Shown here one piece after another: positions 29,490-49,082 of a stretch of DNA of 64,000 nt. Numbering within the stretch: position 1 is the stretch's first letter; each line of letters starts with the position of its first letter. The stretch lies in NCBI GenBank assembly GCA_016787805.1, contig JAEUTY010000020.1, positions 33,424 to 97,423 on the forward strand, in the 5' to 3' direction. The translations under genes were made by a program, and so were the position numbers. The notes below the pieces were generated by a model that was not told where the DNA came from, did not search any database, and saw only the letters and a program-made list of their open reading frames with translations. The DNA is from Flavobacterium sp. Lineage in GTDB: Bacteria; Bacteroidota; Bacteroidia; Flavobacteriales; Flavobacteriaceae.

Positions 29490-29515
29490 AATTTTCTTTC
29501 TTATCAGTTGAAGTT

Positions 29516-29545: not shown

Positions 29546-29803
29546 GTAGTTCAGTCAATGCCCTAAAAGGGCAAAGACGAAACGAAACGCTGACCTGAGG
29601 CATAAACCCAAAGGGAACAGCCACAAGCTAAATTATAAACACGGCAGCCCATAGAAGGCGACCAATTAAAAAAACGCCTACGAACCCTACGCTGGTGGGC
29701 AAATGGCGAAACGGCTACTAACGAGCCTGACTGACAAGAGCCACAACGGCAAACTGCTGAACTGGTGGCTGACTGGGAAATGTGATGTACTGACATAATA
29801 AAG
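29546..29803. other. Gene-free stretch with several short hairpins
   Basis: No convincing gene. Small stems include GCCCTAAAAGGGC (29560-29572), AGGCG/CGCCT around 29657-29683, GGCT/AGCC and AGCCAC/GTGGCT near 29740-29770. The sequence is richer in G, C and purines than the flanks. It may be part of the structured region that follows. Confidence 0.4.
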
Positions 29804-29999
29804 AAAATTTAATATGCCCTTCTCAGCAAGGGTGATAAAAAAACCAAAAGGAAACGGAATAAGTCCCGAAGGGTGCAAAAAAATAGGTGCAAATTTGGCT
29901 TTGCCTTGCAACTATTTTTTTGCATTATGCCGTAGTCTTTTGGTTTTTTTGTTGGCTTTGTGCGTTGCCACCCTTGCTACTTTTGCATATTAGAATTTT
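29804..29999. repeat. Structured palindromic element, copy A
   Basis: Nested stems: AAAATTTAATATGC (29804-29817) with 29985-29999; AGCAAGGGTG (29825-29834) with CACCCTTGCT (29969-29978); AAAAAAACCAAAAG (29837-29850) with its perfect complement (29937-29950); ACGG and ATAA with CCGT and TTAT; side hairpin CCCGAAGGG (29865-29873); and a 13-bp stem TGCAAAAAAATAG (29874-29886) with 29912-29924. Copy B at 30530-30755 keeps the core and the pairing but changes the paired bases. Confidence 0.75.
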
Positions 30000-30033
30000 A
30001 TTTATGGCAGTTTTTAGCACATTTTGCCCACCG

Positions 30034-30471
30034 TTACCGTTTGCTGTGGAAATGCCTGTATATCAAGGCTCTTTTTACATCGTTTAGCAATGCCATTTGT
30101 TCGTAAATCTGTTTTTGTTTTCGTTCTATTAGCTTGAACTTGTGAACATCTTGAATAAAATCTTGTGGCTGTATGCTTACTTTATTTGCCTGTTCTTTTA
30201 CCACTTGTTTAAAATCGGATATTCTAATAAATGGAATTACTGAACCTGTATGATAGGGATAAAAATGCTTTATTTTCCATAAGCCAAAAAGTAAGGTTGT
30301 GTAAAAGTCCTTTTCCTCTTGATTTTTACAAGCTAATACAAAACAATTAGGACAAGGCTTTTCAAGTGGTTTGCCACTATTTAAGCCCTTACATAAAGCG
30401 TAAACATCAAATTCATTTACTGGATTTTTTGGATTGAATGTGCAAATTTTTACTGACTGCATAAGAAACAT
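30034..30471 (-). CDS. Conserved element protein, probably DUF6943 family
   Basis: The 145-aa protein contains CKGLNSGKPLEKPCPNCFVLAC (two parts: LNSGKPL and a PCPNC pair), which I associate with the DUF6943 family of Bacteroidota mobile elements, followed by a helical C-terminal half rich in Lys and Gln. The start may be the Met at codon 4. Function unknown. It stands between the two structured elements, and no other gene lies within 500 nt on either side. Confidence 0.6.
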   Translation of the reverse strand: MFLMQSVKICTFNPKNPVNEFDVYALCKGLNSGKPLEKPCPNCFVLACKNQEEKDFYTTLLFGLWKIKHFYPYHTGSVIPFIRISDFKQVVKEQANKVSIQPQDFIQDVHKFKLIERKQKQIYEQMALLNDVKRALIYRHFHSKR

Positions 30472-30529
30472 TGCTTTAATTGTTAGCTGCTTTGTTCCTT
30501 GCTATGGCGAAAACCCATAAATATTTTTA

Positions 30530-30755
30530 CAAAGAAAAAAACAGAAAAAAAAGAAAGCATTCAAAAAGGTGGCGTGGCAAAAAAGCCAAAAGGAAACGGA
30601 ATAAGTGCCGAAGGCTGGCAAGGCAAAAAATTAGATTTGCGAAGCAACAAAAATGCCTTGCCATTATGCCGTAGTCTTTTGGCTTTTTTTGTGCATAGGC
30701 TTGTGCAAGCCACCTAACTTTGCTTTCCTTTTTATTCCTGTTGTTTTTTTCTTTG
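30530..30755. repeat. Structured palindromic element, copy B
   Basis: Nested stems: CAAAGAAAAAAACA (30530-30543) with 30742-30755; GAAAGCA with TGCTTTC; AGGTGGC with GCCACCT; AAAAAAGCCAAAAG (30579-30592) with 30676-30689; ACGG/ATAA with CCGT/TTAT; side hairpin GCCGAAGGC (30607-30615); and TGGCAAGGCA (30616-30625) with TGCCTTGCCA (30654-30663). The unpaired core matches copy A. Short ORFs across this region are by-products of the repeats. Confidence 0.75.
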
Positions 30756-30834
30756 GAAAACTTTTTACTTCTTCATTCTATTTATTTGTTAAAAATCAAA
30801 TTGCTTTTGTTGCGTTGGCTTGGGGCAATATGTC

Positions 30835-31057
30835 GCAGAAAAAATAAAGCATACCTACAGTTGTGGCGTTGGCTGAAAGCAAGTGTATGAGGTACGAAAT
30901 ACTCTTGCTGTGTGGTGCTTGAAATAATGTGTGAAATTTATGGAGTGGAATGGAGTGTAAGCATATTTGCGATAGCTGCTGAAACGACTGGAACGGAATA
31001 AATGAACACTTTATTAAGCACATTGGCATCCTATATTAATGCTTTATTTTTTTCTGC
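30835..31057. repeat. Palindromic region with 18-19-nt terminal inverted repeats
   Basis: GCAGAAAAAATAAAGCAT (30835-30852) is the inverse of ATGCTTTATTTTTTTCTGC (31039-31057, one extra T). Inside, AGCAAGTGTAT pairs with ATACTCTTGCT, and GTGCTTGAAATAATGTG partly pairs with the stretch around 31010-31022. No gene inside. Confidence 0.6.
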
Positions 31058-31095
31058 ACCGCTGAAAAGGGTGGTTGGGGTGTGTGGCTTCGGGG

Positions 31096-31182
31096 GGGTG
31101 AAGCGTTGTGAAAAAATACGGCTTCACCCTTGCATTAAAAAAGCCATTGAAAAAAACTATTACTCTTTTTAATGCAAGGGTG
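31096..31182. repeat. Two mutually exclusive hairpins
   Basis: GGGTGAAGC (31096-31104) can pair with GCTTCACCC (31121-31129), but the last five of those bases also begin the 17-bp perfect stem CACCCTTGCATTAAAAA (31125-31141) with 31166-31182. Only one can form at a time. Confidence 0.6.
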
Positions 31183-31196
31183 CTAAGGTATTGGAT

Positions 31197-31291
31197 ACTT
31201 AACATAATGTTCTTATAGGACATTTTTTGAGTTGGCATAGTCGCCTATAAGCGTTGGGAAAATGTACTATAAGGCAACATTATGTTTAAGT
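31197..31291. repeat. Long imperfect inverted repeat
   Basis: ACTTAACATAATGTT, CTTATAG and ACATTTT (31197-31226) pair in order with the inverse blocks at 31259-31291, broken only by a bulged A, a GC bulge and one mismatch. The loop is about 32 nt. Confidence 0.6.
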
Positions 31292-31299
31292 AGCTTCAG

Positions 31300-31474
31300 G
31301 CAGTTTTTATACTGGCATAAGCGAAGTGGTGGTGGTGGTTGGAACGAAGCGTTTTTTTGTTGCTATGCTTTGGGTTGGCTTGGCTCTTTGCAAACGCAAC
31401 GAAGTGAGTATTGCAATGTGCCAACAGTTTAGGTAGCATAGCCACAAAAAATATGACAGTTAAAAACTGACTGC
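31300..31474. repeat. Nested palindrome downstream of the defence operon
   Basis: Outer arm GCAGTTTTTATACTG (31300-31314) with 31457-31474; middle arm TTTTTTGTTGCTATGC (31353-31368) with GCATAGCCACAAAAAA (31436-31451); inner arm TTGGCTCTTTGCAA (31380-31393) with TTGCAATGTGCCAA (31411-31424). It lies just past the last gene of the operon, so it may act in its 3' UTR. Confidence 0.55.
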
Positions 31475-31554
31475 AATACCTTATAGGGCTTTATGCGTAG
31501 GCTCTGTGTGTTGGCAAAGCCCAAAGCCGTATTTTTTTGTGCGTTGGCTTACAA

Positions 31555-32976
31555 TTATTTTTCTTTCAACAATTCATCTAATTCCTTTTTACGATGATAC
31601 CAAAAACCAATTTTGTGTGTATAACCCTCCTTATTTAACCTTTTATGTGCATACTTCATTTCATATTCGGTAATTGAAGTGTTTTTCTCAGCTAAATAGG
31701 TGAAGTATTTATAAACTACTGACACCAACTTATGCTCTTTGATGATTGCTTGGCTTAAATAACTTTCAAATACTAATAACCTTTCTAATTCTTCTGTAAG
31801 TTCTACAAGTTCTAAGCCATCAGCTTCGGGTGGTCTTTTTAGCTCCCGTATTCTACCTTCTTCATCTATGGCTATTACATCTTTCGGATTTACTACTTTC
31901 CGGTGCTTTTTTACTCCCTCTAATGACCATTCTCTATCAATAAAAGACAAACCGTGTTCTAACCAAAGCCCTGCATTATCTAAAACAATCCCAAATTCTT
32001 TACCATCAGCTGGTCGCATACACCTGCCTACTTGCTGTAAATAAAGCACCAATGATTTTGTGGGACGAGCTAATTGCACTGCTTCACAGTCCGGAACATC
32101 AAATCCTTCAGAAACTATATCTACATTACACAAAACTTTAATTGTCCCATTTCTAAACTGGTTCAATTTTTCTTTTCGTTCTATTTTTGATGTGTTTGCA
32201 TCAATATGGACTGCTTGTACACCTGCTGCAATGTATCTATCAACAATACTTTTGCTGTGCTCTATATCAACAGCAAATACAATAGTTTTTTTTCCTTTGG
32301 CAAACTTCAAATAACTTTCAATAAGGTCTGCCATTAAAGAATTATCAAGCATTACATTTTTAAGCATCTGCAAATCATAATCTCTACGAACTTGCCTTAC
32401 ATTTTCCAAATTCGGAATACCACAAACCCTATGCTTAATCGGTGCTAAATAGCCTTCTTTAATAAAATAACTTAACTTTCCTAATGATATGAGTGTATCA
32501 AATAAATCTGAAAATCCATCACCATTCAACCGAACTGGAGTTGCAGTAACGCCTAAAAATCTGGCATTAGGGTATATGCTCCATAAGGTTTTGTATGTAT
32601 CTGCTTTTGAATGATGGCACTCATCAATTATAACTATGTCAGCTTTTGGGTATTCTCTACGAGAAAGAGTTTGAATTGTAGCAACTTGAATTGCTTTATT
32701 TGGTTCAGGTTTTACACCTGCTGTTATGATACCTGCATCAACTTCAAATGTTGCAAGACGGTCTTTTATTTGTTCAACTAATTCTGTACGGTGAACAACT
32801 AATAAAACTGTTTTATTCTTTAGTTGTGCTTTTCTAACAATTTCTGAAAACACAGTAGTCTTACCTGTACCTGTTGGCATTTGAAATAACACTTTCATAA
32901 GGTTATCCTTTGCAGGATTCCACGCATTGAAAATTTTAGTTATTCCATCTTTTTGGTACTGTCGTAATTCAACCAT
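31555..32976 (-). CDS. Stand-alone SF2 helicase (SSL2/RadD-like), last gene of the defence operon
   Basis: The 473-aa protein is an SF2 translocase: Walker A FQMPTGTGKTT (about 31-41), VVHRTELVEQI (Ia), DECHH (118-122), VTATPVR, VSEGFDVPD and QQVGRCMRP (motif VI). About 100 C-terminal residues follow the helicase core and show no nuclease motif. It begins 12 nt after the DUF262/DUF1524 gene stop. Because the operon's methylase carries a nuclease-like domain and no HsdR is present, this could be the separate motor of a type I-like enzyme, or the helicase partner of the Argonaute; both are inference. Confidence 0.85.
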   Translation of the reverse strand: MVELRQYQKDGITKIFNAWNPAKDNLMKVLFQMPTGTGKTTVFSEIVRKAQLKNKTVLLVVHRTELVEQIKDRLATFEVDAGIITAGVKPEPNKAIQVATIQTLSRREYPKADIVIIDECHHSKADTYKTLWSIYPNARFLGVTATPVRLNGDGFSDLFDTLISLGKLSYFIKEGYLAPIKHRVCGIPNLENVRQVRRDYDLQMLKNVMLDNSLMADLIESYLKFAKGKKTIVFAVDIEHSKSIVDRYIAAGVQAVHIDANTSKIERKEKLNQFRNGTIKVLCNVDIVSEGFDVPDCEAVQLARPTKSLVLYLQQVGRCMRPADGKEFGIVLDNAGLWLEHGLSFIDREWSLEGVKKHRKVVNPKDVIAIDEEGRIRELKRPPEADGLELVELTEELERLLVFESYLSQAIIKEHKLVSVVYKYFTYLAEKNTSITEYEMKYAHKRLNKEGYTHKIGFWYHRKKELDELLKEK

Positions 32977-32988
32977 TTATACCTGTTT

Positions 32989-35067
32989 TCAACTATTTTC
33001 CATTTGTATATCAAATGCCTGTTGGATTAAATCCATAACATTATCTAATTCACTCATTTTACTAATACCAACTTCTATATCACCATTGCCCCATCTACCT
33101 TTATCCGAAACATCAATACATAAGCCTAATGGGTCGTCAATTTGATTAAATTCTATGTTCAAGGATAGTCTTAATCTTGCTTTTTGAGGAACAATGTCTA
33201 CAAAATTTGTATTAGATTTAAAAGCTATGTATAGCTTTTTATACTCCTCTTTTACGGAAGCATCAATATTTAATATTCGTTTCTTTAAAGCATAATAAAG
33301 CTCTAACATATCACCTTTCAAATACTCATACTGCTCAATTGTATATGTGGTGGTTTCCTTTTCTTCACTACGCTTATATTTATCCAAAATTTCTTGAGGC
33401 AAATTTGGAGCTCCCCAAATTTTAGAAGCTTTTAGTGCTAATTCAATTGCTCTTTCCTGTATCTTTTCTTCATTCCAAACATCTACTTTTTGCATAAATG
33501 AATTTAAACGAAGTGGTGAATGGTCAAAGCCACCTTCAATTGATTTTTTAATATCAAACGGGTTATCACTTAATTCAGGATTGTAGCCGGTAAGAGTTAA
33601 GTTACCTAATGTATGCAAATACTTCTTCTGTACTTCCTGCCAATTATCGCCCAACATTACTTGCCATTTTGCATTTAATTTGGGGTTTTGAGGCATAATG
33701 TGTTCTATTGTATAGTCATCTGTATTTACTATTTCCTTTCTGTTGAAGTTTTCCAAATTATGCAACAAGTAATTACGAGAACGGAAATTATATACATCTT
33801 TTAAAACAATTTCCTTTTCAAATTCTACATCATTTGGAAAACGTTTATAGTTTTCCATTAACTGAAACGCTGCTTGTAAGCTCTCTAAATATGTATGTGG
33901 CTTGATGGATTTATAAAGTGTTGCAAATGTTTTATTTAAACTGTTTGTAGGTATGCCACAAATAGCTCTACGGAAAACATAATTTTCAACTAACTTAATT
34001 ATTTCTTTAAAATCATTTACACTCAATAAGCCTAAAGCATAATCATTGTAAACTGGTAATAGAAACGGATAAGAAACATCAACCTTTAATTTCAAAATGT
34101 TAGTAAAGAGTTTTTTTAGGTCTTCGTTTTTCTCTTTTCTTAAAACCATATTCACATAAAATCCTGAGTATTTAAATATGTCTTGAACTACCTCTGTAAT
34201 TGTGGACGGAGCTTTACTACTTTGTACGAATGCTTTAAATTCTTCATATACTTTGTCTATACGTGGAATTGAACCTGTCTTTACCGAGAGATAGTCTCTC
34301 ATAAACCAATCAAATTTGGTTGCGTATTCATTACCGTAACTCTGTTCCATTGGAAACCAATACTTTTCATACAATTCTGTTTGGAGCTTAATGTCTTGCC
34401 CCATTAATATGTAGTTCCTAATCAAATCTGCTTGTGATAAATCTAACCCTGTTGAGTTCATACTTTCAAAAATCAACTGTGGATTGTCTTTGTCTTTTTC
34501 CAATGCCACATCTACAATAAACAACCTAAGAATACCATTGTAAATGTCATTTACATTTTCTTTGGAAATTTTACCCTTAAAGAACTTATAGTTCTCAACC
34601 AATCTTAATGAAAACTCACCCGATGGTTCTATACCTTTAATTAAATTGATTAAAGTGTCTTTATCCCTTCTGGTGAGTAGTAATTTATATCTTAACTCGT
34701 TTTCTTCTTCCGAATTTAACAAGTAGTAATTTTGAAGCTTTGTGAAATTTGTATCAATACTAACTTCGTTTTCTTTTATAAATTCTGCCAAAGCAATAAT
34801 TAACAATGAAACTGTGGTTAACCTTTGCTGACCGTCAATTACTAATAATTTGGGGACATCTGATACAGTGTGTATGCTCTCTTGAAAATATACTACAGAA
34901 CCAATAAAATGACCTTGTAAGTTTTCATCGGTGCTTACTTTAAGTATATCATTAAATAATTTATTGCATTGAGGAATTAGCCAACTATATGTCCTTTGGT
35001 AAATTGGAATTACAAATTGTTTTGGCCCCTTTATTACTGTTAATAGATTTGCTGATGTTGCTTTCAT
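32989..35067 (-). CDS. Single-chain GmrSD-type DUF262/DUF1524 nuclease
   Basis: The 692-aa protein has an N-terminal DUF262 domain with IPIYQRTYSW (20-29) and VIDGQQRLTT (76-85), the ParB-like NTPase motif of GmrS, then FESMNSTGLDLSQADLIRN. The DUF1524 domain carries the HNH-type EHIMPQN (His455) and TLGNLTLTGYN. A C-terminal segment with RLRLSLNIEFNQIDD looks like DUF5655. GmrSD enzymes cut DNA with modified bases such as glucosylated hydroxymethylcytosine, so this is a type IV restriction candidate. It lies 25 nt after the Argonaute gene. Intact motifs suggest it is active. Confidence 0.85.
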   Translation of the reverse strand: MKATSANLLTVIKGPKQFVIPIYQRTYSWLIPQCNKLFNDILKVSTDENLQGHFIGSVVYFQESIHTVSDVPKLLVIDGQQRLTTVSLLIIALAEFIKENEVSIDTNFTKLQNYYLLNSEEENELRYKLLLTRRDKDTLINLIKGIEPSGEFSLRLVENYKFFKGKISKENVNDIYNGILRLFIVDVALEKDKDNPQLIFESMNSTGLDLSQADLIRNYILMGQDIKLQTELYEKYWFPMEQSYGNEYATKFDWFMRDYLSVKTGSIPRIDKVYEEFKAFVQSSKAPSTITEVVQDIFKYSGFYVNMVLRKEKNEDLKKLFTNILKLKVDVSYPFLLPVYNDYALGLLSVNDFKEIIKLVENYVFRRAICGIPTNSLNKTFATLYKSIKPHTYLESLQAAFQLMENYKRFPNDVEFEKEIVLKDVYNFRSRNYLLHNLENFNRKEIVNTDDYTIEHIMPQNPKLNAKWQVMLGDNWQEVQKKYLHTLGNLTLTGYNPELSDNPFDIKKSIEGGFDHSPLRLNSFMQKVDVWNEEKIQERAIELALKASKIWGAPNLPQEILDKYKRSEEKETTTYTIEQYEYLKGDMLELYYALKKRILNIDASVKEEYKKLYIAFKSNTNFVDIVPQKARLRLSLNIEFNQIDDPLGLCIDVSDKGRWGNGDIEVGISKMSELDNVMDLIQQAFDIQMENS

Positions 35068-35092
35068 TTTATTACAATTCTTTTATTTTTAT

Positions 35093-37294
35093 TTACAAAA
35101 ACCACAAATTATTTCTTGCGAACTCATTGGGACGTTCCATATTAAAGTGTGGCCATATTTTGGCTACCATTTCTGGGTATTTAATTGTTACAGGCAGGCT
35201 TTGCTGGTCGTTGCTTTTCCAATACATACGACTAAATTGATATACCTGGTCAATAAATAATTCTATTTTTTCGATGCTGTCAATTTCCTGTTCATCGGTG
35301 CTGCTTATGGCAACCTTTATTGGAAAATGAAACTCTTTCTTTTTAGGATTTGAGGTTTCATCGTACCGGGTATTATTGAATAATAGATATTCGGAGTAAC
35401 CAACTTTTATAAATGTGCCGCTTGCTGGCATTAAATTACTATAACTTGTATCAAAGGCTATCAGGTCTTTGCTTTCTGTTTTATTAATAGTAACAATAAC
35501 AATAGGAATGTTTAAACCCAATTTGTACAATATATTGCGTATAGGTTTCAGTTCCTTTTCGCCAATATCTTTATAAAAATGAATTACTAATCTTGATGCA
35601 GTTTCATTAGCAATTATAAATTTCAGTACTGCTTCACGAATAGAACCTGCCAAACTAATTGTATCATTAGAATTAAAACAATCAAATCCTTTAAATACGC
35701 CTTCGTTATCAAAACAAAAGGCAGAACCAATAAATCGCTTACCTATTTTAGTGGAATAAAAAGCCCCTACGCCAACAATTAATTCTTTGTTGCTTGTTCG
35801 GTTTAATCGCCACGGTATGCCACCTAACTTGGCTAAAATTGCTATTTGTATATGAGGCAAGAAGGTATTAAAATCTTGATTGAATATATTTTTCCGTACA
35901 CCATTTGTTTTAAACAAGCCTAATTTTAATTGTGCCTCTGAAAAGTTTTGAGGGTTATTATTCCTCCAAATTTCTAATTGTTTTTCTGCTTCTACTGCAT
36001 TAAATATGTTAGGGCTTTTTATTACTTGTGAAGAAATGCCTTCAATCAGTAATAATTCCTTGATTTTGTAATAAATATTAACTCGTTCTTGGTTGGGCTC
36101 ATCTTTTGGAACCGGGTTTACATAAATAGCAAAGTAGGTAGTATTAGGCAACCTTTCTTTATTACGGATAAATTGTTTTATTTCCTGTACAGCAGTATCA
36201 ATATTATCAAATGCAAAACTCTCATTCTGTAAAATACTAAAAGGATGCTTAATATATTGCTGCATACTTGGAAACTTCCATTCACCATTAAAGCCATCTT
36301 TTAAGTAGGTATAAATGGCTTGCATCGCAGTTTCCTTTTCAGGTTTGTGATACAAGAAAAAGAACCTGATATTATTATTGGATGGGATGGGTTTGTAAGG
36401 ACCCTTGTACTTAAAATCTCCTTTAGGGTCATAGCCTATATTATTGGGGGCTTTGCCACCAAATACCAACTCTTTAGATGTTTTACTTAATACAGCATAT
36501 TGGTCGGTAGAAATTTTAAGAAAGCCATCAGTTGCTAATGGAAAAACTTTTTTAAAATCTGTTGTTATGATTAGCTTTCTTAGGAAGTCTTCTAAAATTG
36601 GTTTGTATTCGGTGTATCTATTTCGTGATGGGTTAGTGGTATCGTGTGCTATACCCAAATGTGGTTTGAGGGTATTGCTTAGTACAGGGTAACTAATATT
36701 TGCTTTAGCTTGTATTTCGGGAGTACGAAAACGATATTTGTATAATACGCCTTCACATACAATCCAATTGTAAAGATTGGTATCTAAATCTGTTATATCT
36801 AATACCGACTGTTTGAGTACTTTGGTAGTACCGTCATAAGAAATTACCAATTCTGGCAAGTTGCTTACCCTTGCATTTTGCACCTTAATAGTAAACTGAT
36901 TATATAAATTATACTCTTGTGTGCTTTTCTTTTTGTCGTGCAGCCATACCTCGGTTTCAGAAGTAAAATTTTTATGTATAATATCAACTTTACCGATAAA
37001 ATATTGTCTTATAAGGTAACGGTAATAATGGTTGGCAAATCGTGGTGTTTCGGCAAAGTTTATTTCAATGTTTATGGCATCTTCCGTTGGTGCTTGAAAG
37101 TCTGTATATAATTTTTCTAAACTTTCAAGTTCTTCTTCACTAAATATTTCATTCAATAGTTCTCCCAAATCATCTTTAAAAATGGGATAAAAGCCCTCTT
37201 GCTTTGCCAAAGCCGGATTGTTATAAAATGCAAAACTGGCACTCGGTACTGGGTGATTGAATGGAACAATATTTAGTTGTAAGGATTGATGCAC
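35093..37294 (-). CDS. Long prokaryotic Argonaute with altered PIWI active site
   Basis: The 733-aa protein has an N-terminal and linker half without a familiar motif, a MID domain (about 385-495) with YYKIKELLLIEGISSQ and the hallmark AKLGGIPW (488-495), and a PIWI domain (about 500-733) ending RMYWKS...TIKYPEMVAKIW and NNLWFL. In PIWI the first catalytic Asp is expected in an IIGIDV-like strand; here it reads LIVGVGAF with Gly510 instead. FYKD (Asp576) fits the later Asp. Predicted to bind a guide and target but not to slice. It starts 6 nt after the HNH gene, deep inside the operon, so a neighbouring nuclease or helicase may act as effector. Confidence 0.85.
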   Translation of the reverse strand: MHQSLQLNIVPFNHPVPSASFAFYNNPALAKQEGFYPIFKDDLGELLNEIFSEEELESLEKLYTDFQAPTEDAINIEINFAETPRFANHYYRYLIRQYFIGKVDIIHKNFTSETEVWLHDKKKSTQEYNLYNQFTIKVQNARVSNLPELVISYDGTTKVLKQSVLDITDLDTNLYNWIVCEGVLYKYRFRTPEIQAKANISYPVLSNTLKPHLGIAHDTTNPSRNRYTEYKPILEDFLRKLIITTDFKKVFPLATDGFLKISTDQYAVLSKTSKELVFGGKAPNNIGYDPKGDFKYKGPYKPIPSNNNIRFFFLYHKPEKETAMQAIYTYLKDGFNGEWKFPSMQQYIKHPFSILQNESFAFDNIDTAVQEIKQFIRNKERLPNTTYFAIYVNPVPKDEPNQERVNIYYKIKELLLIEGISSQVIKSPNIFNAVEAEKQLEIWRNNNPQNFSEAQLKLGLFKTNGVRKNIFNQDFNTFLPHIQIAILAKLGGIPWRLNRTSNKELIVGVGAFYSTKIGKRFIGSAFCFDNEGVFKGFDCFNSNDTISLAGSIREAVLKFIIANETASRLVIHFYKDIGEKELKPIRNILYKLGLNIPIVIVTINKTESKDLIAFDTSYSNLMPASGTFIKVGYSEYLLFNNTRYDETSNPKKKEFHFPIKVAISSTDEQEIDSIEKIELFIDQVYQFSRMYWKSNDQQSLPVTIKYPEMVAKIWPHFNMERPNEFARNNLWFL

Positions 37295-37300
37295 TTTTAA

Positions 37301-38005
37301 TTAATTTAGATTATTTACAATAAAATAGACTATTAAGGTGCAATACTCTTTTAGCCTATTTTCTCTATTTGGAGTTGTATATTTTTGAATAAGAACTTGC
37401 TTATTGATTGCATTTTTGTTTGGCAAACTTTTAATGAATTGATTTAATACCACATTACGCCTGTGAATTAGCATATCATCGTTTAGATTTAGTTCATCAT
37501 CTACATCTGATTGAATTGCTGCTATATCAGTTTTTAATACTCCACCTTCATATCTGAATACATTTGAGAATCTATACGCTGGGTCTTGAGGTTTTATTGT
37601 TAAGGTGCTACCATCAGTCCTTGAGCTATCACAATGTGTAAATTTTGGATTAGCGTTTTCACCAGGACAGACTATAAGCATATTCTCGTGTGCCACATCT
37701 CTGCCATTAGGGGTGTCATAATGTGCATATATTTTACATAAAGATTGAGGATACCAATGTTCAATTTTCAAAAGATGAAGCTTATTAGCAAGTTTATCAG
37801 TAGGCTCTAAATACTCATCGAGATTCCTGTTGCAATACGCACATAAATAATGCTGTTCAATTAGCAAGGCTAACTTATAGTCATTCTTCTGAGGATTTAC
37901 CAATAAATCATAATTACAGGGGCTACCTGCACCAAGTAACTGTGTATTTGCCTTAAAATCTTGTAATGGCTGTGGCTCACCTTGTACCTTAGTAATATTT
38001 ATCAT
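37301..38005 (-). CDS. HNH nuclease, Septu PtuB-like (TIGR02646 type)
   Basis: The 234-aa protein has paired zinc cysteines CAYC (55-58), the HNH core IEHWYPQ (His83) with HENMLIVC (Asn108, Cys113) and FTHCDSS (Cys125). This is the PtuB/TIGR02646 layout, also found in retron Ec78. The ATPase gene ends 6 nt upstream, the PtuA-PtuB order of Septu systems. In Septu the ATPase holds the HNH nuclease until phage infection. The pair is inserted between an S subunit and an Argonaute, which is unusual. Assignment rests on motifs, order and length. Confidence 0.78.
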   Translation of the reverse strand: MINITKVQGEPQPLQDFKANTQLLGAGSPCNYDLLVNPQKNDYKLALLIEQHYLCAYCNRNLDEYLEPTDKLANKLHLLKIEHWYPQSLCKIYAHYDTPNGRDVAHENMLIVCPGENANPKFTHCDSSRTDGSTLTIKPQDPAYRFSNVFRYEGGVLKTDIAAIQSDVDDELNLNDDMLIHRRNVVLNQFIKSLPNKNAINKQVLIQKYTTPNRENRLKEYCTLIVYFIVNNLN

Positions 38006-38011
38006 AAGCCA

Positions 38012-39613
38012 TTAATCTTTTAGAAAGTCAAGTTTAGTTTGTAGGCGTATGATTTCTATATCAGTACCAGAGAGTTTACTTTTTAAGCTTTTAAAGGCTT
38101 TTTCACCTTCATCAATTTTGCCAGTATCTAATAGAGTATCTACATTCTGTATTTCTTTAGTAGCCCATTTAGGTCTAAACTCACTTCCCATAATTTCGTG
38201 AACAGTATCATTGACATCTCTACCGTACCAAGACAAACTATGATGATGTAGCTTACCTACTTTCATAATAAATAATTCACCTTGTGCTGAATCTAAATTA
38301 TTAAGAAAAGAAGGGTTATGCGTAGTGACGCAATAATGGTTTTGATACATTTCATTAGTATCATTGTTTGCTTCAATGTTAATTATCAAATCATCTTGAA
38401 GTGAAGGATGTAAATAGTTGTCAGGTTCATCAAACAAAAACAAAGCATTATTAGTACCTACTATTTCGTTTAATGCTGTAATGATAATAACTTGTTTTTC
38501 TCCTTCACTTAATTGCTCACCATTTATTTCAGTATTATCCTTTATTACATTAACGTTAAGTTCTTTTAGTAGCCCATTGTATTTAAGCATCAGCAACAAT
38601 TCAAATACCATTTTTGGGTTTTGAATAACATCTTCTGAAAGGTATTGCCACTTACCAATACTGAAATTAAATGTGTACTCTTCTTTTAATTCATCATAAA
38701 CATTATCAGGGGTTAGACAGGTTTCTTGTAGCTGTTTTAAAAATGCTCCAAGCCGACCCGATGCTCCAAAGAAATTTGCTGCTCTACGTTTGTTTAGGTC
38801 AGAAATCATATTTCTCTTTATTTCTAACAAATCGGCATCCGCATCATTATCTTCAATTAATATAATGTCATTATCAATTTCTTTTAAACGGTCTTTGAGT
38901 TCAACCTTATCAAATTCTGCTTTATTGATAACCAACGTTATTAGCGTTGTGCTATTTGAAATTTTAAGGCTTCCAAATAATTTTTTGCTTATTCTATCAT
39001 TAAAAGAAAATGCCCATAAACCTGCAAACAGCAAATTAAAATCTGATGGGTTAAATAGAAACATTGGCATCTGTGTATTTTCTACATAGCCTTGTTTTGT
39101 AGCAGAAGGATTAAGTTTAAGTTGTTTCAATAAATAATCCTCTGTGGATTGATAAATAGATTGAAAATGATTTGAGATACCAGAATAATAAATAATTAGT
39201 CTTTTTGGCAATAGTGATTCGTCACTATACTTCTTTGATATTTCTGAGTAAAAGTCTTTCTCTTTTTCCTTATCTACATTAATGGTAATTTCAACTTTGC
39301 CTTGTTCATTTACCAAAAGTTTTACTGGAATGTAGTCAATATTAAATTTTGAGTGCATTGCTTCCTTTTCTGTCTCGGTTTCATATCGTAAAAAATATTC
39401 AACATAAGACTGCTTGATGTAATCGGGAGCTACTGACTTCTTTTTTAAAATTGTTTGCTCGTATGCTACTGAAAATAGTAATGCCAATGATTCTAATATG
39501 GAGCTTTTACCAGAACCATTGATGCCTATAAAAACAGAAATCTGCTTCGTAAATTTTATGTCAAAATCTTGAAGCAATTTATAGTCGTGTATATATAACT
39601 TTTGTAGTATCAT
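38012..39613 (-). CDS. AAA/ABC-type ATPase, Septu PtuA-like
   Basis: The 533-aa protein has an N-terminal Walker A IGINGSGKSS (29-38), a long middle insert, and a C-terminal half with signature LSEGEKQ, Walker B LFLFDEPDNYLHP and H-loop TTHNPSFL, as in RecF/SMC-like ATPases. The tail RDVNDTVHEIMGSEFRP followed by a helical segment is typical of PtuA and retron-linked ATPases. It abuts the S subunit gene with no gap and precedes the HNH nuclease by 6 nt. No reverse transcriptase is present, so a Septu pair rather than a retron is favoured. Confidence 0.78.
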   Translation of the reverse strand: MILQKLYIHDYKLLQDFDIKFTKQISVFIGINGSGKSSILESLALLFSVAYEQTILKKKSVAPDYIKQSYVEYFLRYETETEKEAMHSKFNIDYIPVKLLVNEQGKVEITINVDKEKEKDFYSEISKKYSDESLLPKRLIIYYSGISNHFQSIYQSTEDYLLKQLKLNPSATKQGYVENTQMPMFLFNPSDFNLLFAGLWAFSFNDRISKKLFGSLKISNSTTLITLVINKAEFDKVELKDRLKEIDNDIILIEDNDADADLLEIKRNMISDLNKRRAANFFGASGRLGAFLKQLQETCLTPDNVYDELKEEYTFNFSIGKWQYLSEDVIQNPKMVFELLLMLKYNGLLKELNVNVIKDNTEINGEQLSEGEKQVIIITALNEIVGTNNALFLFDEPDNYLHPSLQDDLIINIEANNDTNEMYQNHYCVTTHNPSFLNNLDSAQGELFIMKVGKLHHHSLSWYGRDVNDTVHEIMGSEFRPKWATKEIQNVDTLLDTGKIDEGEKAFKSLKSKLSGTDIEIIRLQTKLDFLKD

Positions 39614-40966
39614 CTAATTAAATATTTCTTGTTCAAATTGAGAAATTGCAAGCTCATTGTTATTTTGAATTTGTGCTTTAAGATTAATTATTTCGGACTT
39701 CATTTTACCTGATAGATTAATTAAATCCATCTGTAAATCTTTTGACGGAATTGGGATTTTAAAATCATACAATAGTTCAGAGTTCAAATTATTGATATTA
39801 GAACCGAATATTTTTGAACTCAAATAATCATTAAAAAGTGATGTATTTAAAATTAGGTTTAAATAATCAGGCATCAGCACTTCACTATTGATACGAATAA
39901 CACCCATAAAGCCACCGAAATAATAATCCATATCCTCATCAATAAAAACAACCTTTCCAATGTGTTTTTTACTGCCACTTGCTAAGCAAATAAAAACATC
40001 ATTTTTTCTTAATTTTTTTTCATCCGAAAACTGTTCAGTTTTTGAAATATATTTAATTTCATCAAAATTTAGTGTATTGTCTAGGTTAATATTGTTTGCC
40101 CTTAAAACTTTATAACCACCCGAAGGCAGCTCACTACTTTTCTTATAAGTAACACCCCTAATCAGAGTACAATAGGTTCTTAATGGTTGAAGATGATATT
40201 TGTCTGACTTATAAATTTCTTTATTTAGTAATAGTTTATTTACGCCCCAAGAAGTAAGAGTAGAAAATTTTGAAAACTGCAAAATTTTATTACTACTATC
40301 ATTAAAGGATTTTGAAATACTTAGAGTTGATAAGATAGTCTCTTCAATCTGCTTTGATTTTTCTTCAATAAGAGCATTTAAAATATTTACTTGATTAACT
40401 TTTTCTAGGTATTTGTCAATAATTTCATTTTGCTTTTTGATGGATGGAAGAGGGATTTTAACATCCAAAAATTTCTTTTCATCCATACGTTGCCTACCTG
40501 TTGTACCCGAACTGGCACTTTGTGCAAAACGCTGAAATTGCTTAGTTGTGGTAAGCAATACAAGAAATTGAGGTAATATTTTAGTTTCGTCTATGTCATA
40601 AGCAAAAAAGTCTGCTGTTATAATTGCTCCATCTACTTCTTCAGTAGCTATTCCAAAAGCTCCATTTCTGGCATCTATTTTTGACATTAAAAATTGCCCT
40701 TGCTTAATGATAAATTGTTTCTTAGTGCCAATTTTTTTACCAATTTCAGTATCTCTTAGTTTTACACCTTTATTATACAAGCGAATAGTTACCCTTTTGT
40801 AAATAGTGTTATCATCAACACTAATTTGTGTTTTGTTACGTAATAAAAAATTACCAATCCGTTCTAACTTAAAATCTTCGTTATAGTTAAATTGATTGGC
40901 AAGCAAGTGGGCAACACTCCAATTGCTAAGGTTTTTATATCGTAATTTTTGAAAACTTACAGTCAT
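39614..40966 (-). CDS. hsdS: Type I restriction-modification specificity subunit
   Basis: The 450-aa protein has two target-recognition halves. The first ends with IKIPLPSIKKQNEIIDKYLEK-type helix (PLPSIKKQNEI), followed by the central coiled coil KSKQIEETILS. The second ends IPIPSKDLQMDLINLSGK and the C-terminal coiled coil. These paired repeats are the HsdS plan. It determines the DNA site recognised by the adjacent methylase, whose stop is 6 nt upstream. The recognition sequence cannot be read from the protein. Confidence 0.9.
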   Translation of the reverse strand: MTVSFQKLRYKNLSNWSVAHLLANQFNYNEDFKLERIGNFLLRNKTQISVDDNTIYKRVTIRLYNKGVKLRDTEIGKKIGTKKQFIIKQGQFLMSKIDARNGAFGIATEEVDGAIITADFFAYDIDETKILPQFLVLLTTTKQFQRFAQSASSGTTGRQRMDEKKFLDVKIPLPSIKKQNEIIDKYLEKVNQVNILNALIEEKSKQIEETILSTLSISKSFNDSSNKILQFSKFSTLTSWGVNKLLLNKEIYKSDKYHLQPLRTYCTLIRGVTYKKSSELPSGGYKVLRANNINLDNTLNFDEIKYISKTEQFSDEKKLRKNDVFICLASGSKKHIGKVVFIDEDMDYYFGGFMGVIRINSEVLMPDYLNLILNTSLFNDYLSSKIFGSNINNLNSELLYDFKIPIPSKDLQMDLINLSGKMKSEIINLKAQIQNNNELAISQFEQEIFN

Positions 40967-40972
40967 AATTAT

Positions 40973-43129
40973 TTAATTCCAAAGTTTGTTTTTAATACGA
41001 TATTCTGTGTACACTTTTAGCAAGTCTGGCAATTCGTCATCGCCAGTTGCACCCGTTGTAGTTATACCTGCTTTCTGTATATCTGAAATTGGAACTTCGT
41101 AATCAAACATTTCTCTTACAATTTCCTTTTGCTCAATATCCATTTTTGCTTTAATAGCATTTAATTCAGATTTAAGTCTTTTCTTTTCATCTATGGAAAG
41201 TTGCTGCTTGCTATCCTTGTTTTCTAACTTAGCCTCAATAGCTGTTATCTCTTCATTATATTTATCCTTTACTGTCTTTTCAGCCTGTTTGGTAATCTTG
41301 CTGTATTCTGCTTGCTCTTTCTCATTAAACTTTTTAAGAAATACTAAACTTGTTTTTACTGTTGCACCGCTACTTACAAAAACGTCTTGAGGTAATGAAA
41401 CTAAAAGCAAAATCTTTGCACGGCTTTCAAAATAATTTCTAACACTCTCAAGATTACCACTATTCAAAACACCTTCTGGTAAAACAATTCCCATTCGCCC
41501 TCCTGGCTTTAGCAAATCCAAACAACGTTCTATAAATAATACTTCTGTTGCACCTGATGTTTTACCAGTTGTAAACAAACTCCTGATTGATTCACCAAAA
41601 TTCTCCGTAACTTGTTTCATCTCTTCAATGTATAAATCACCGTACTCCTCAATGTACCTTTGAATCATTGCTTCGTTGGTATATTTATCATCAATCTCAA
41701 CTGTTGGACTATCCTTTTTTAGATTCGTACCAAAAGGGGGATTAGTAATAATTACATCAAACCTGTTTCTGAAAATACCATTAACATTTAGTAAGCCATC
41801 ATTATGGTGAATACCATTATGACCATCACCGTGCATAATCATATTCATTTTAGAAACCCTTGCCATTCTTGGGTTGGCATCTGTTCCGAATATTGATTTA
41901 TGAGATAATTTTTGTATTCGCTTGTCCTGCTCCTCATTTATTTTCACCAAAAAAGTATCATATTGCTTTTGTAATCTTTCATCATCAATATTCTCTAAGT
42001 TCTCACCAAATATTTCTTTTTGTTTTTTTGTTTTAAGTGCTATGTACTCATTGTCAATTTGAGTTCTTACCGCTTCAAAAGCCTTTATCAAGAAACCACC
42101 ACTACCAGCACAAGGGTCACAAATAAGTTCGTTTTCTTTTGGGTCTAAAAGGTCAACAATAAAATTTACCACAGCTCTTGGTGTAAAAAACTGACCTAAT
42201 TCACCTCTAAAAGTTCTTCCAAGAAATTTTTCAAAAGCAATTCCTTTAACATCTGCACTTGTACTGGTTAAATTATATACCTGTAATTCCTCAACAATCT
42301 TTTCAAAGCTATTTTCTCTTATTTTGATACGGTCATTGGGTTCAAAAATTTTATCATTCTCAAATGTTTTTTTAACATCTTTAAATAATTTTTGCATATA
42401 AGAAGATTCTTCATCGCTATCACCTACTGCTAACATCCAGGCCTCTTTAAGTTTCTTAAATTGATTTTTTGAAAATATAGCCTCCTGCTTTGGGTTTCTT
42501 TCGTACATTATTTTGATGAATAGCACTTTACTAATTTCGTCAAATGCAGCTTCTGGACTTAGCTTATCATTATTCCTAATTATGTTATGACAAGTTTGCA
42601 ATAGTTTGGCAAATGCGTCACCCGTAAACTCTTTGGTTTTAGCAAGTGCCTCTTCTAATTTTTTTGCATCTGCTATATCCTCCAACTTAGGAATGTCATT
42701 AACAGGTTGCAATTTCAAAGGAATCTCTTCTTCAACTGTTTTATAAACTTGCAGTTCATTTCCATTACTAATAGCAAAAAGTTTTGCTCTACTCCAAGTA
42801 GCATAGTTGTACCCTTGATAACAATCTTCTACTTTTAGTTTGAGATTTTTTGCTTTTAATTCTATAACCAAGAATGCTGTTTTCTTTGCTTTTTTATCAG
42901 CTTCATTTAGCCAAACCACAATATCAGCACTTGCTCTGCCTGTACCACGCTGAGATTTTGTTAATTTAACTTCTTGGTCCATTTGTGCAAGTGAATACCC
43001 ATAGTCATTGACTAATTTGCAAATAAATTCCTGCCTGACTTCTTCTTCGGGTTTTAACACTAACCAAACATCTTTGCCTTTTAATGGGGCTTTAATCTTA
43101 TTACCTTTTATTTCTACTGAAAGTGCCAT
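40973..43129 (-). CDS. Type I DNA methylase (HsdM-like) with an N-terminal restriction-nuclease-like domain
   Basis: The 718-aa protein carries, at about 20-135, an HSDR_N-like domain with EEEVRQEFICKLV, SADIVVW (Asp69) and LVIELKAK (Glu90, Lys92), the D...ExK pattern of PD-(D/E)xK nucleases. The HsdM part has GQFFTPR (312-318), AdoMet motif CDPCAGSGG (337-345) and catalytic NPPF (463-466) of N6-adenine methylases. A coiled coil (about 600-660) precedes the C-terminus. It is longer than plain HsdM. With hsdS next door and no HsdR gene in the window, cutting may be built into this subunit. Motifs are clear; nuclease activity is inference. Confidence 0.88.
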   Translation of the reverse strand: MALSVEIKGNKIKAPLKGKDVWLVLKPEEEVRQEFICKLVNDYGYSLAQMDQEVKLTKSQRGTGRASADIVVWLNEADKKAKKTAFLVIELKAKNLKLKVEDCYQGYNYATWSRAKLFAISNGNELQVYKTVEEEIPLKLQPVNDIPKLEDIADAKKLEEALAKTKEFTGDAFAKLLQTCHNIIRNNDKLSPEAAFDEISKVLFIKIMYERNPKQEAIFSKNQFKKLKEAWMLAVGDSDEESSYMQKLFKDVKKTFENDKIFEPNDRIKIRENSFEKIVEELQVYNLTSTSADVKGIAFEKFLGRTFRGELGQFFTPRAVVNFIVDLLDPKENELICDPCAGSGGFLIKAFEAVRTQIDNEYIALKTKKQKEIFGENLENIDDERLQKQYDTFLVKINEEQDKRIQKLSHKSIFGTDANPRMARVSKMNMIMHGDGHNGIHHNDGLLNVNGIFRNRFDVIITNPPFGTNLKKDSPTVEIDDKYTNEAMIQRYIEEYGDLYIEEMKQVTENFGESIRSLFTTGKTSGATEVLFIERCLDLLKPGGRMGIVLPEGVLNSGNLESVRNYFESRAKILLLVSLPQDVFVSSGATVKTSLVFLKKFNEKEQAEYSKITKQAEKTVKDKYNEEITAIEAKLENKDSKQQLSIDEKKRLKSELNAIKAKMDIEQKEIVREMFDYEVPISDIQKAGITTTGATGDDELPDLLKVYTEYRIKNKLWN

Positions 43130-43131
43130 AA

Positions 43132-43422
43132 TTACTTTTTCTTAATTGTTTTAGAAACAGATTTTAATGCTTCGTCTGCATTGGGTTGGTCTTTTACCAA
43201 ATCCAATACTTGGTCTGCAAGCCAAAGGGTATGCAAATCAGAAAACTCTGCTTTTAAGATTTTTGCCAATGGTTCTATTTGCTCTTGCTTTAGCTGCCTT
43301 GTGCCTTTTTCTATTTTGCTTAACTGGGCTGTATCCATATCAAGCTGTGCAGCCACCTGCCTGAGAAATAGTTTTTGCTTTTCTCTTAGCTCTTTTATTT
43401 TATCACCAAATTGGTATGCCAT
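43132..43422 (-). CDS. XRE-family regulator heading the restriction/defence operon
   Basis: The 96-aa protein is a Cro/C1-type helix-turn-helix: IKELREKQKLFLRQVAAQLD and AQLSKIEKGTRQLKQE (about 9-48), with a short C-terminal extension. It lies 2 nt before the methylase ATG and is the first gene of the operon, as with controller proteins of restriction systems. A palindromic operator candidate overlaps its promoter (43442-43463), suggesting autoregulation that delays nuclease expression. Confidence 0.88.
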   Translation of the reverse strand: MAYQFGDKIKELREKQKLFLRQVAAQLDMDTAQLSKIEKGTRQLKQEQIEPLAKILKAEFSDLHTLWLADQVLDLVKDQPNADEALKSVSKTIKKK

Positions 43423-43553: not shown

Positions 43554-43583
43554 AAATCCTCAACTTAACTTTTTTGAGGATTT
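43554..43583 (-). terminator. Hairpin at the end of the DUF3987 gene
   Basis: AAATCCTCAA (43554-43563) and TTGAGGATTT (43574-43583) form a perfect 10-bp stem overlapping the stop codon region. A second stem CAAGGAAAT/ATTTCCTTG (43502-43510 / 43538-43546) follows. It separates the replication module from the defence operon. Confidence 0.6.
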
Positions 43584-45808
43584 GGGGCTGTAGTGTTGAT
43601 ATAGTAGTCTTGGGATGGGTGTAACACAATTCCGCTATCTATAAATGTTTTGATATATCCCTGTGCTGTTTTATCAGGAATACCTAAAGATTGGGCAATG
43701 TTTACATAGGTTTGTCGGTTAAATTCATAGGGCAATGCCTCCAAAAATAGCTCTTTACGCTTCTTTGGCTTGGGTTGGTGGCTTTGTTCGGCTATTTGGT
43801 TAAATACATAGCTGCTATGCTTTAAAAGGGTTTCAACAATGCTTAAAGTATTTTCAAAATCGGTATCGGTGCAGGTGAGCTGGTTTGTTATTTCTCCGTC
43901 CTCCATAATTCGTAGGGCTGTAAATACCATCATCATACGAAAGGCAGTAAGCCCAAGCCTTCTAACCGTACCTACAATATTATCTTCCTGTATGGCTACA
44001 TATAGGTTTTGCTTTTCTGCAAAAAATTGGTTGAATTTATTTTGTTGGTTTTGAGTAAGTGAAAATTGTATTTCAGGGTTACTCATCAGTAATTGATAGA
44101 GTGTATAAAACTCTGTTCCTAATTGTGCAAAATGATTATCTAAGCCATCAGCAGTATTGGAAGCAAATACATCTTTCCATACTATTTTCATATTCATTAC
44201 ATAGAACATAAAACGGCTGAATAAACCATTTTCGGCACTTGGTATTAAAGTTTGTATTTGCTTGGGAGTGCCTGAAAGCATTGCCGATAGGCAAGGTCTT
44301 TCAATCTCCACAAATTCTTTATCGGTTCTGCGATAGTAGGAAATAGGTTCGTGCTGAAAAGCATTGCGAAAACCATCGCTAAAATCACCATAATCAGATT
44401 TAAAGGCTTTTGCTAAGGTATCGCCTTCAGTTTCAAATATTATTCCTCTACTATTGCTATCACCTAACAATTCTAAAAAACCTGTGGCACTGTTATTGGC
44501 AGGTATGAACAACATTTTTTGAGGTGGCTTTTGTGGTTTTTCTACATTGGATTCTTTGCCTTTATTGGCATTGTACTCCAACATTTCTACTTCGTAGCGT
44601 TGTTTTAATTGCCTGGCTTCTTCTCTTAATGCTTGATGAATTGGGTCAATGAGTTTTCGGCAATGTATTAATACACCTTTTCCGGCAGATGCTTTGGCAG
44701 AAATAAAAATGTATAGATTGGTGTTTACCGGATTATCTCCATACTTGCCCACAACTTTTGGAAATGCCACACTTAACGTAACGATTGAGCCTAATAGTAA
44801 AATATCTCTTTCTTCTTTGGACTGTGCTACGTTGGTGATGCGTTGTAAGAAAACAGGAATAGTATTAAAAACATCATCGGGTAAAGTTGGCATTTGTTCA
44901 TTCATTGGAATTTGCTCTTGCTCTAATGGTTTGGGTTTGTACTTTGCAAATTCTTGTGTATGGTGAGTGTAAGCACTTTTTACCGCTTCCTGAATTTCTC
45001 TATTAGGTAGGTCAAAATGCCTTGTACATAGTAGTTCAGTATCGGATTGCGATAAACCAACTCTGTTGCAATTAGAAGCAAGCTGATAAATATAATTGTT
45101 TCGGTTGCCATCGGTGTATTGTATTTTATTGTTTGTGAATTGTATTTGCTGATTGAATAGGAATGTAATATTCAGGTCTTCGGGTTCTGCCTGTGCCTCT
45201 GCAACAACTGGAGCAATAGCCGTAGGCGTTTGCGATTGTTGTTCTTGAATGAATTGGGGCAAAGCCACAATGAATTTTTGGTTTTGTATGGTTCGGTATG
45301 CGTTGGGGTCGTGGCTCATAAAACAAAGCCTTGTAACATCCTTGCATTTATCGTCTGCCTTTAAGCCTGTAGCATCTTCATAGAACTTTTGTACTTGTTG
45401 GTAAGCTATGTCGTGGTGTTCCAATTCCGTATTAACCTCAATAAATACTTTTAATCCGTTACCACTTGGGCTAATAAAGCAAAGTGCTGTGTATGGAATT
45501 TTACAAATAACTGCAAAAGCATTTTGCAATTGCTCTGCTGTGAGTTTATCAAAGTCTAAATGCACAAAACCACTGTACATTTCGAGAAAAGGCATTTGCC
45601 TTTTTTCGGTAAATACTGCCGAAGGCGTAAAAGCTAAAAGCTGCTTTTTCTTACTATCTGCTTCGTCCTTTTTGCCTTGTGCAAGAAGGGTTCTAATTTC
45701 CTCTACTTCCGTTTTGTATTTGTCGGAAATAATGTCTTTACCAATCAGCAAAAGGGATTTCTTTTCTACTGGTATGGTAAAGCTTCTGAATATGGTACAA
45801 CTTGCCAT
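43565..45808 (-). CDS. VirE_N (BT4734-like) plus DUF3987 replication-type protein
   Basis: The 747-aa protein starts with a BT4734/VirE N-terminal domain (about 20-175: MYSGFVHLDFDKLT, CFISPSGNGLKVFIEV, DVTRLCFMSHDPNAY), a primase-polymerase-like fold. A DUF3987 domain follows (about 310-690) with the P-loop-like SAKASAGKGVLI and ISYYRRTDKEFVEIERPCLS. The C-terminus carries a winged-helix-like end. These proteins are typical of Bacteroidota islands and phage-like elements and are thought to be primase/helicase replication proteins. The HTH gene ends 29 nt upstream on the same strand. Confidence 0.85.
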   Translation of the reverse strand: MASCTIFRSFTIPVEKKSLLLIGKDIISDKYKTEVEEIRTLLAQGKKDEADSKKKQLLAFTPSAVFTEKRQMPFLEMYSGFVHLDFDKLTAEQLQNAFAVICKIPYTALCFISPSGNGLKVFIEVNTELEHHDIAYQQVQKFYEDATGLKADDKCKDVTRLCFMSHDPNAYRTIQNQKFIVALPQFIQEQQSQTPTAIAPVVAEAQAEPEDLNITFLFNQQIQFTNNKIQYTDGNRNNYIYQLASNCNRVGLSQSDTELLCTRHFDLPNREIQEAVKSAYTHHTQEFAKYKPKPLEQEQIPMNEQMPTLPDDVFNTIPVFLQRITNVAQSKEERDILLLGSIVTLSVAFPKVVGKYGDNPVNTNLYIFISAKASAGKGVLIHCRKLIDPIHQALREEARQLKQRYEVEMLEYNANKGKESNVEKPQKPPQKMLFIPANNSATGFLELLGDSNSRGIIFETEGDTLAKAFKSDYGDFSDGFRNAFQHEPISYYRRTDKEFVEIERPCLSAMLSGTPKQIQTLIPSAENGLFSRFMFYVMNMKIVWKDVFASNTADGLDNHFAQLGTEFYTLYQLLMSNPEIQFSLTQNQQNKFNQFFAEKQNLYVAIQEDNIVGTVRRLGLTAFRMMMVFTALRIMEDGEITNQLTCTDTDFENTLSIVETLLKHSSYVFNQIAEQSHQPKPKKRKELFLEALPYEFNRQTYVNIAQSLGIPDKTAQGYIKTFIDSGIVLHPSQDYYINTTAPNPQKS

Positions 45809-45837
45809 TTCTTTTCTTTCTTATCAGTTAAAAAAAT

Positions 45838-48441: not shown

Positions 48442-48447
48442 TTCTTA

Positions 48448-49064: not shown

Positions 49065-49082
49065 TTACTTTCCGATACAGAA
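49065..49082 (-). repeat. mnmE-side attachment site
   Basis: The last 18 nt of mnmE, TTCTGTATCGGAAAGTAA, are nearly the site that I recall for Salmonella genomic island 1 integration into its mnmE homologue (trmE/thdF). The element preserves this end, so MnmE keeps its C-terminus. Confidence 0.7.

Follow-up and report, generated by a model that had tools for sequence, protein, structure and literature searches.

The operon examined here comprises eight defence genes at positions 31555-43422 of a 64,000-nucleotide (nt) stretch of Flavobacterium sp. DNA (the window; GCA_016787805.1, contig JAEUTY010000020.1, positions 33,424 to 97,423 of the forward strand). It is probably a set of interchangeable defence modules stacked on a single integrative element, with restriction-modification (R-M) systems swapped in a slot and an Argonaute gene inherited together with the element backbone. 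As an initial annotation of this DNA had described, all eight genes lie on a single strand, the minus strand, with gaps of 0-25 nt (2, 6, 0, 6, 6, 25, and 12 nt in gene order). Its family calls held up against Pfam, PADLOC, and NCBIfam, with two refinements: the methylase is fused at its N-terminus to a nuclease-type domain (the fusion is called M* below), and the GmrSD protein ends in DUF5655.

43132..43422, minus strand, XRE regulator at the operon head (Pfam HTH_31, HTH_3)
40973..43129, minus strand, nuclease (HSDR_N_2)-N6 methylase fusion, M*, slot module (Pfam; motifs)
39614..40966, minus strand, S (specificity) subunit, slot module (Pfam Methylase_S)
38012..39613, minus strand, PtuA-like ATPase, slot module (Pfam AAA_15; PADLOC PtuA)
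37301..38005, minus strand, PtuB-like HNH protein, slot module (PADLOC PtuB, 142.1 bits)
35093..37294, minus strand, RsAgo-like long-B Argonaute (Piwi), predicted to be catalytically dead, constant element gene (GTG start)
32989..35067, minus strand, GmrSD with C-terminal DUF5655, optional gene (Pfam)
31555..32976, minus strand, RadD-like SF2 helicase, optional gene (Pfam ResIII, Helicase_C; NCBIfam RadD below cut-off)

M* carries D..E-x-K, DPC-x-GSGG-type, and NPPF motifs. Both the DUF262 and DUF1524 domains of GmrSD score above the Pfam cut-offs (GmrSD_N 117.2 bits, GmrSD_C 84.2 bits). The Pfam scan detected no nuclease domain in the helicase and no HsdR within the eight-gene operon, the nuclease-type domain sitting on the methylase. 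The slot module of the window consists of M* and S with the PtuA-like ATPase and the HNH protein; GmrSD-DUF5655 and the RadD-like helicase lie past the Argonaute.

The element at mnmE

Judged from its sequence context, the operon seems to be carried as cargo by an element roughly 19.5 kilobases (kb) long, spanning 29.5-49.06 kb of the window at the 3' end of mnmE. It reads as cargo because backbone genes, an integrase, and mnmE lie upstream and a shared right-end module lies downstream.

49065..50471, minus strand, mnmE, chromosomal, its 3' end bordering the element (Pfam TrmE_N, MnmE_helical)
48448..48846, minus strand, small gene between mnmE and integrase (homologues similarly placed in other Argonaute elements)
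47335..48441, minus strand, tyrosine integrase (Pfam Phage_integrase, Phage_int_SAM_5)
46256..47335, minus strand, DUF6617 gene, element backbone (Pfam; same position in relatives)
45838..46140, minus strand, HTH_17 gene, element backbone (clusters with a family whose representative is HTH_17)
43565..45808, minus strand, DUF3987 gene with a BT4734-like N-terminal domain, element backbone (Pfam; PADLOC RTasVirE-PriCT2)
29556..31550, no single strand assigned, right-end module including a DUF6943 gene at 30034-30471, minus strand (match to L101, another Argonaute locus; Pfam DUF6943)

The order along the element is integrase, DUF6617, HTH_17, DUF3987, XRE, defence module, Argonaute, optional genes, and right-end module. 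The right-end module (29556-31550) is 88.8% identical to positions 12047-14056 of L101, where it begins 13 nt past the Argonaute, and the right border of the element is placed from this match.

Related loci were gathered by scanning a collection of species genomes: of 334 Argonaute relatives the best 80 were kept and, with six loci and the window, gave 87 loci, given L numbers where they must be told apart. Loci L031-L033 were left out as copies of L059, L058, and L075; L073 and L077 were also left out of the correlations, the DUF5655 locus scan, and the adjacency count. The 87 include L087, which its profile mis-assigned, and two loci with split Argonautes (L065, L127). A validation set came from 395 genomes of the order, which held 12 Argonaute matches at E 1e-30; three had been seen before and L158 was dropped as the L114 locus, leaving eight new loci.

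An integrase next to mnmE and a shared backbone, the features that define an mnmE integrative element, are both present. The integrase is preceded by mnmE in seven of the nine first-set loci with sequence upstream of it, in all seven validation loci, and also in L165 and L166. Seven of the eight validation loci hold mnmE, integrase, DUF6617, DUF3987, and Argonaute in the same order. Integrases like that of the window (56-69% identity) occur in 18 other Argonaute loci, the L096 integrase being 27% identical. The integrase lineage (at least 61% identity) was found in 6 of 385 genomes, five with the Argonaute and the sixth on a contig that ends after the integrase.

Searches of plasmid and phage records gave two plasmid records, both distantly matched (26% and 21% identity), and no phage record. 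No Rfam family reached its gathering score between positions 28000 and 50500, and promoter and terminator scans gave signals no commoner than in shuffles.

Two short repeats were observed in the element. A 21-nt sequence occurs in copies 86-100% identical at 29492-29512 (the presumed right border), 45812-45832 (just before the DUF3987 start), and 48436-48456 (the integrase start), and could be a regulatory or recombination site. A 44-nt repeat (89%; 29832-29875 and 30574-30617) flanks the DUF6943 gene in the right-end module. The mnmE end of genus relatives (L132-L154) often holds other integrases, 10 of 23 matching the window integrase at only 30-43%. Outside the element, positions 51524-52213 give an unexpected Pfam match to Lipl32 (4.7e-79), described as a Spirochaetales surface lipoprotein.

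Exchange in the slot and descent of the Argonaute

DUF3987 lies upstream of the Argonaute, on the same strand, in 49 of the 87 loci. With R-M genes recognised by our own profiles, seeded from scanned genes, the interval between the two holds R-M genes in 34 of these loci, nothing or XRE alone in eight, and other genes in seven. XRE was called in 30 of the 49, a low count because the script missed the window's own XRE. The arrangement of the operon is not a product of chance, because the backbone and the position of the Argonaute recur across dozens of loci.

The slot contents are diverse. Type I and type III systems are found there, as are a C5 methylase next to an AAA_5 ATPase (L034), Gabija (L067), HEC-01 (L053), and a type IIG/DISARM-like set (L104); a module of the window type, M*-S-ATPase, is also present in L078, L089, and L101. 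The slot of L036 holds N6_N4 and C5 methylases, with MZB and helicase genes past the Argonaute, a gene set that we read as DISARM-like. Validation slots hold an MmeI-like enzyme (L160), two D12 methylases with an AlwI-type nuclease (L156), or XRE only (L155, L157). The gene after the Argonaute also varies across the 87 loci and is sometimes an efflux or regulatory gene.

Several neighbours recur around the Argonaute. CusA/RND-type efflux genes are frequent just downstream (L033/L075, L062, L086, L113, L114, L116, L123, L155, L157). Genes of the 23S_rRNA_IVP type, one representative of which was scanned, occur among the nearby defence genes of L052, L060, L063, and L066. At L042 (3375-14541) a distant Argonaute in two frames is flanked by methylase-like and HsdR-like genes.

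Exchange can be followed at the level of DNA. Fifteen locus pairs with similar Argonautes, a selection picked from the tree, were aligned; in six of them identity covers DUF3987, in five together with some or all of XRE, is then lost, and returns no more than 10 nt from the Argonaute start, the Argonaute DNA being 89-95% identical. In five of these six pairs identity stops within 4 nt of the Argonaute stop. The slot contents exchanged are empty for type III (L116/L120), RhuM for empty (L113/L114), type I for a Schlafen-type helicase (L118/L121), M*-S-ATPase for RhuM ... HsdR (L089/L126), type I for empty (L093/L094), and type I for a methylase, S, and HEC-01 (L052/L053). Elsewhere the gene next to the Argonaute is kept while the R-M genes differ: YhcG in L058/L059, RhuM in L057/L061, and a RecD-like helicase of 1209 amino acids in L054/L055. 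A 23S_rRNA_IVP gene separates YhcG from the Argonaute in L060. No recombination motif was seen by eye at the Argonaute borders of 74 loci.

Slot class is unlinked to Argonaute descent, because the numbers of changes match those of shuffled trees. On an Argonaute tree of 84 rows with hand-assigned slot classes (78 classified, 6 unclassified), class required 43 changes, 200 shuffles averaging 43.5. Type I versus type III (47 rows) required 14 against 15.7, and 45 of 200 shuffles were as low. Similarity among the Argonautes goes with that of DUF3987 (rho 0.54, permutation p 0.001, n 39), and no such relation was found with the methylase (rho 0.03, p 0.39, n 25) or Mod (rho -0.08, p 0.68, n 15); for RhuM rho is 0.47 (p 0.054, n 10).

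Co-occurrence was examined across the phylum, in 395 genomes. Of these, 23 gave an Argonaute match at E 1e-3 and 10, counting the distant G337, contain the clade of the window (best E no higher than 3e-44). The initial annotation had suggested testing whether the Argonaute co-occurs with the flanking methylase and helicase more often than by chance; close methylase homologues (E 1e-100) occur in six genomes, and only the window's own genome has both. For DUF3987, E 1e-60 yielded 15 matches spread over 14 genomes. A clade Argonaute lies downstream, on the contig and strand of the match, for the six best (G000, G126, G194, G146, G281, G057; 51-69% identity besides self), a cut chosen after the gap in identity was visible; the nine lower matches (28-42%) are in genomes without one.

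Alternative readings and a possible mechanism

The interpretation of the operon as exchangeable modules on an element has several observations against it. DUF3987 was unseen in 38 of the 87 loci, of which 13 have less than 6 kb upstream and 25 have 7-13 kb, often filled with R-M genes; in L059, one of the 25, it sits just past the analysed upstream DNA. Three Argonautes seemingly lie outside the element (L038, the distant L039, and the broken Argonaute of L163, the eighth validation locus, where the element is absent). Argonaute similarity is weakly related to Res (rho 0.18, p 0.047, n 17) and HsdR (rho 0.19, p 0.066, n 26), and XRE, often at its place, shows no such relation (rho 0.08, p 0.14, n 33). 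A search for attachment (att) direct repeats found none, nor a copy of the mnmE end at the right border. The mechanism proposed below is inferred at every step.

The locus could alternatively be a plain defence island in which the Argonaute is a common passenger like others and is not specially linked to an element. Optional genes do change downstream of the Argonaute too, identity between paired loci often begins or ends at the borders of its gene, and the loci without visible DUF3987 would fit such a view. We nevertheless consider it unlikely: the Argonaute stays when the slot is empty (the eight loci above, and also L155 and L157), it is present in every readable genome of the DUF3987 and integrase lineages, and its distances track those of DUF3987.

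Similarly improbable, in our estimate, is that the Argonaute works for the element and not for the host: guided but unable to cut, it would keep out or silence plasmids and sister elements. Its tie to the backbone and its persistence without R-M genes nearby (L086, L114, L116, L155, L157) would suit such a role; the action of RsAgo, the nearest fold, on plasmids in a heterologous host, as reported in PMC10620215, fits this and the host-defence reading alike.

The initial annotation had offered two readings of its own. One placed a cassette slot within a type I-like operon: the slot stands, in inverted form, with the restriction genes as cargo and the Argonaute as part of the frame, and it lies between the DUF3987/XRE side and the Argonaute. 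A slot inside a type I operon was itself rejected, since elements with an empty slot keep the Argonaute. The other was one composite system, in which methylase and S mark self, ATPase-HNH, Argonaute, and GmrSD are linked effectors, and the helicase feeds substrate; despite the tight packing and the recurrence of the order M*-S-ATPase-Argonaute-GmrSD in L078 and L089, it is very improbable and was rejected on gene exchange (L089 and L126 share backbone and Argonaute DNA at 94% and 95%, and L126 has RhuM and HsdR instead of M*-S-ATPase), discordant identities (L078 versus L089: GmrSD 96%, Argonaute 57%, S 26%), and the single shared genome among 395. For the recurrence of the gene order elsewhere, a check that the annotation had suggested, L078 and L089 count in favour of a composite, although their parts disagree in identity, and the annotation's own ground for giving up a composite system, free exchange of middle genes for unrelated defence genes, is what related loci display. 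A tight operon of defence genes need not mean a composite system.

If the operon is a stack of modules on an element, these would act side by side. M*-S would methylate host sites and cut unmodified DNA, with the ATPase and HNH protein as a sensor/effector arm. The Argonaute would take a 5'-phosphorylated guide (an RNA guide against a DNA target, as in RsAgo) and find invader DNA; unable to cut, it would block the target or pass it to a nuclease, here most likely GmrSD-DUF5655. XRE probably times expression after arrival in a new host.

DUF5655 provides a lead, not a proof, toward such a nuclease. It is found in 10 of 85 loci scanned, adjoining the Argonaute in nine (five before, four after) and once lying two genes before it. 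It is either the tail of GmrSD or lies behind a head with a conserved D and E-x-K (five of six upstream proteins); two heads scanned matched HSDR_N_2 only below the Pfam cut-off. Other accessory families adjoin the Argonaute in 25 of 51 cases, and at that rate (0.49) 9 of 10 has a probability of 0.009, although the ten cases are not independent (L078 and L089 GmrSD are 96% identical; L107 and L128 are alike). L156, beyond the 85 loci, adds an Argonaute-GmrSD-DUF5655 case, and L082 has, right past the Argonaute, a GmrSD fragment 87% identical to that of the window and ended by the contig. A literature search for DUF5655 found no paper. As a tentative suggestion, DUF5655 may be a coupling domain that links interchangeable nucleases (GmrSD or a PD-(D/E)XK-like head) to an otherwise effector-less, element-borne Argonaute. 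The element would then be a modular immune platform with one constant guided sensor, swappable killers, and a slot for swapping restriction systems, and the coupling would name the missing Argonaute effector link.

Relation to known systems

The label "type I-like" given initially is only partly apt. A methylase and an S subunit are present; HsdR, which in type I R-M combines motor and nuclease, is missing, HSDR_N_2 is fused to the methylase, and the nearest solved structure to M* is RM.BsaXI. The core M*-S instead resembles type IIB R-M, as judged by domain content: BsaXI, like the window, has a nuclease-methylase fusion and a separate S protein. BcgI is another type IIB example. The window core differs in being joined by a PtuA-like ATPase and an HNH protein. 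The methylase, ATPase, and S also match the MADS families MAD2, MAD3, and MAD5, at scores far below the NCBIfam cut-offs (297.8 of 720, 30.6 of 420, and 60.1 of 400 bits), which speaks against membership. A literature search on MADS listed no primary paper.

Adjacent ATPase and HNH proteins are likewise found in Septu, and the best PADLOC hits of the pair are PtuA (127.8 bits) and PtuB (142.1 bits). Here, however, the pair lies within the M*-S module, and NCBIfam PtuA and PtuB (retron Ec78) fall below cut-off. Outside Argonaute elements, S and a PtuA-like ATPase come after M* in all four loci that are long enough (L046-L049; L050 is cut), one of the four having a PtuB match, and the DNA examined in L046-L049 gave no match to Argonaute, GmrSD, or helicase nearby. 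The ATPase is grouped with M*-S because the three recur without those genes. A separate Septu cassette is accordingly less likely, although in L057 and L059 (L165 is the L059 locus) an ATPase-HNH pair sits inside a type I operon, which counts otherwise. Relatives of the helicase lie directly past the Argonaute in L127 (67%) and four genes past it in L057 (72%).

From its alignment the Argonaute is an RsAgo-like long-B protein with predicted retention of the guide pocket and loss of the catalytic residues, and its model covers RsAgo end to end in comparison with the RsAgo structures. Relative to what we take to be the canonical catalytic motif, the first Asp position is G in 86 of 87 rows and N in one, and the H-R-D position reads H-F/Y-Y-K in all 87. 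Residues Y408, K412, Q423, and K489 of the MID 5'-phosphate pocket, aligned with AfAgo and presumably involved in guide binding, are kept in all 87. The fold, the lost catalysis, and the kept pocket are common to the RsAgo and BPAN, BPAS, and BPAM long-B systems, and RNA-guided DNA recognition is expected. Whereas BPAN, BPAS, and BPAM have one effector family per operon, no dedicated family directly downstream was found across the 87 loci, several of which have no effector near.

Earlier surveys met genes of the same kinds. Makarova et al. 2009 associate prokaryotic Argonaute genes with R-M and other defence genes and not with mobilome genes (PMC2743648). Ryazansky et al. 2018 report HsdS, HTH, and RND efflux genes in long-B operons of no defined composition, RND genes occurring in 14% of them and receiving no explanation there (PMC6299218). 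For the window clade the element view would explain both the undefined composition and the RND genes, and efflux cargo of the elements may account for the reported link. Among the matches listed in searches on Argonaute with R-M, neighbourhoods, mobile elements, and VirE, which left subscription papers uncovered, no title described this element.

A close counterpart is the inactive long-B subclade of Song et al. 2023, which has the VirE-N protein og_54 encoded 2-8 genes upstream; that paper leaves og_54 function and partnerless long-B Argonautes to future study (PMC10620215). The window likewise has an inactive Argonaute with DUF3987/BT4734_N upstream, and its Argonaute probably belongs to that subclade. 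PF08800 was formerly named VirE_N. What differs here is that the gene upstream belongs to the backbone of a mobile element and the intervening genes form an exchangeable slot. For this clade the element view offers an answer to the question left open about og_54: the VirE-N protein would be part of the backbone, with R-M, efflux, and helper genes riding as passengers. The view also points to natural pairs that combine a common frame with different restriction systems, and to empty-slot elements (L086, L114, L157) that isolate the Argonaute.

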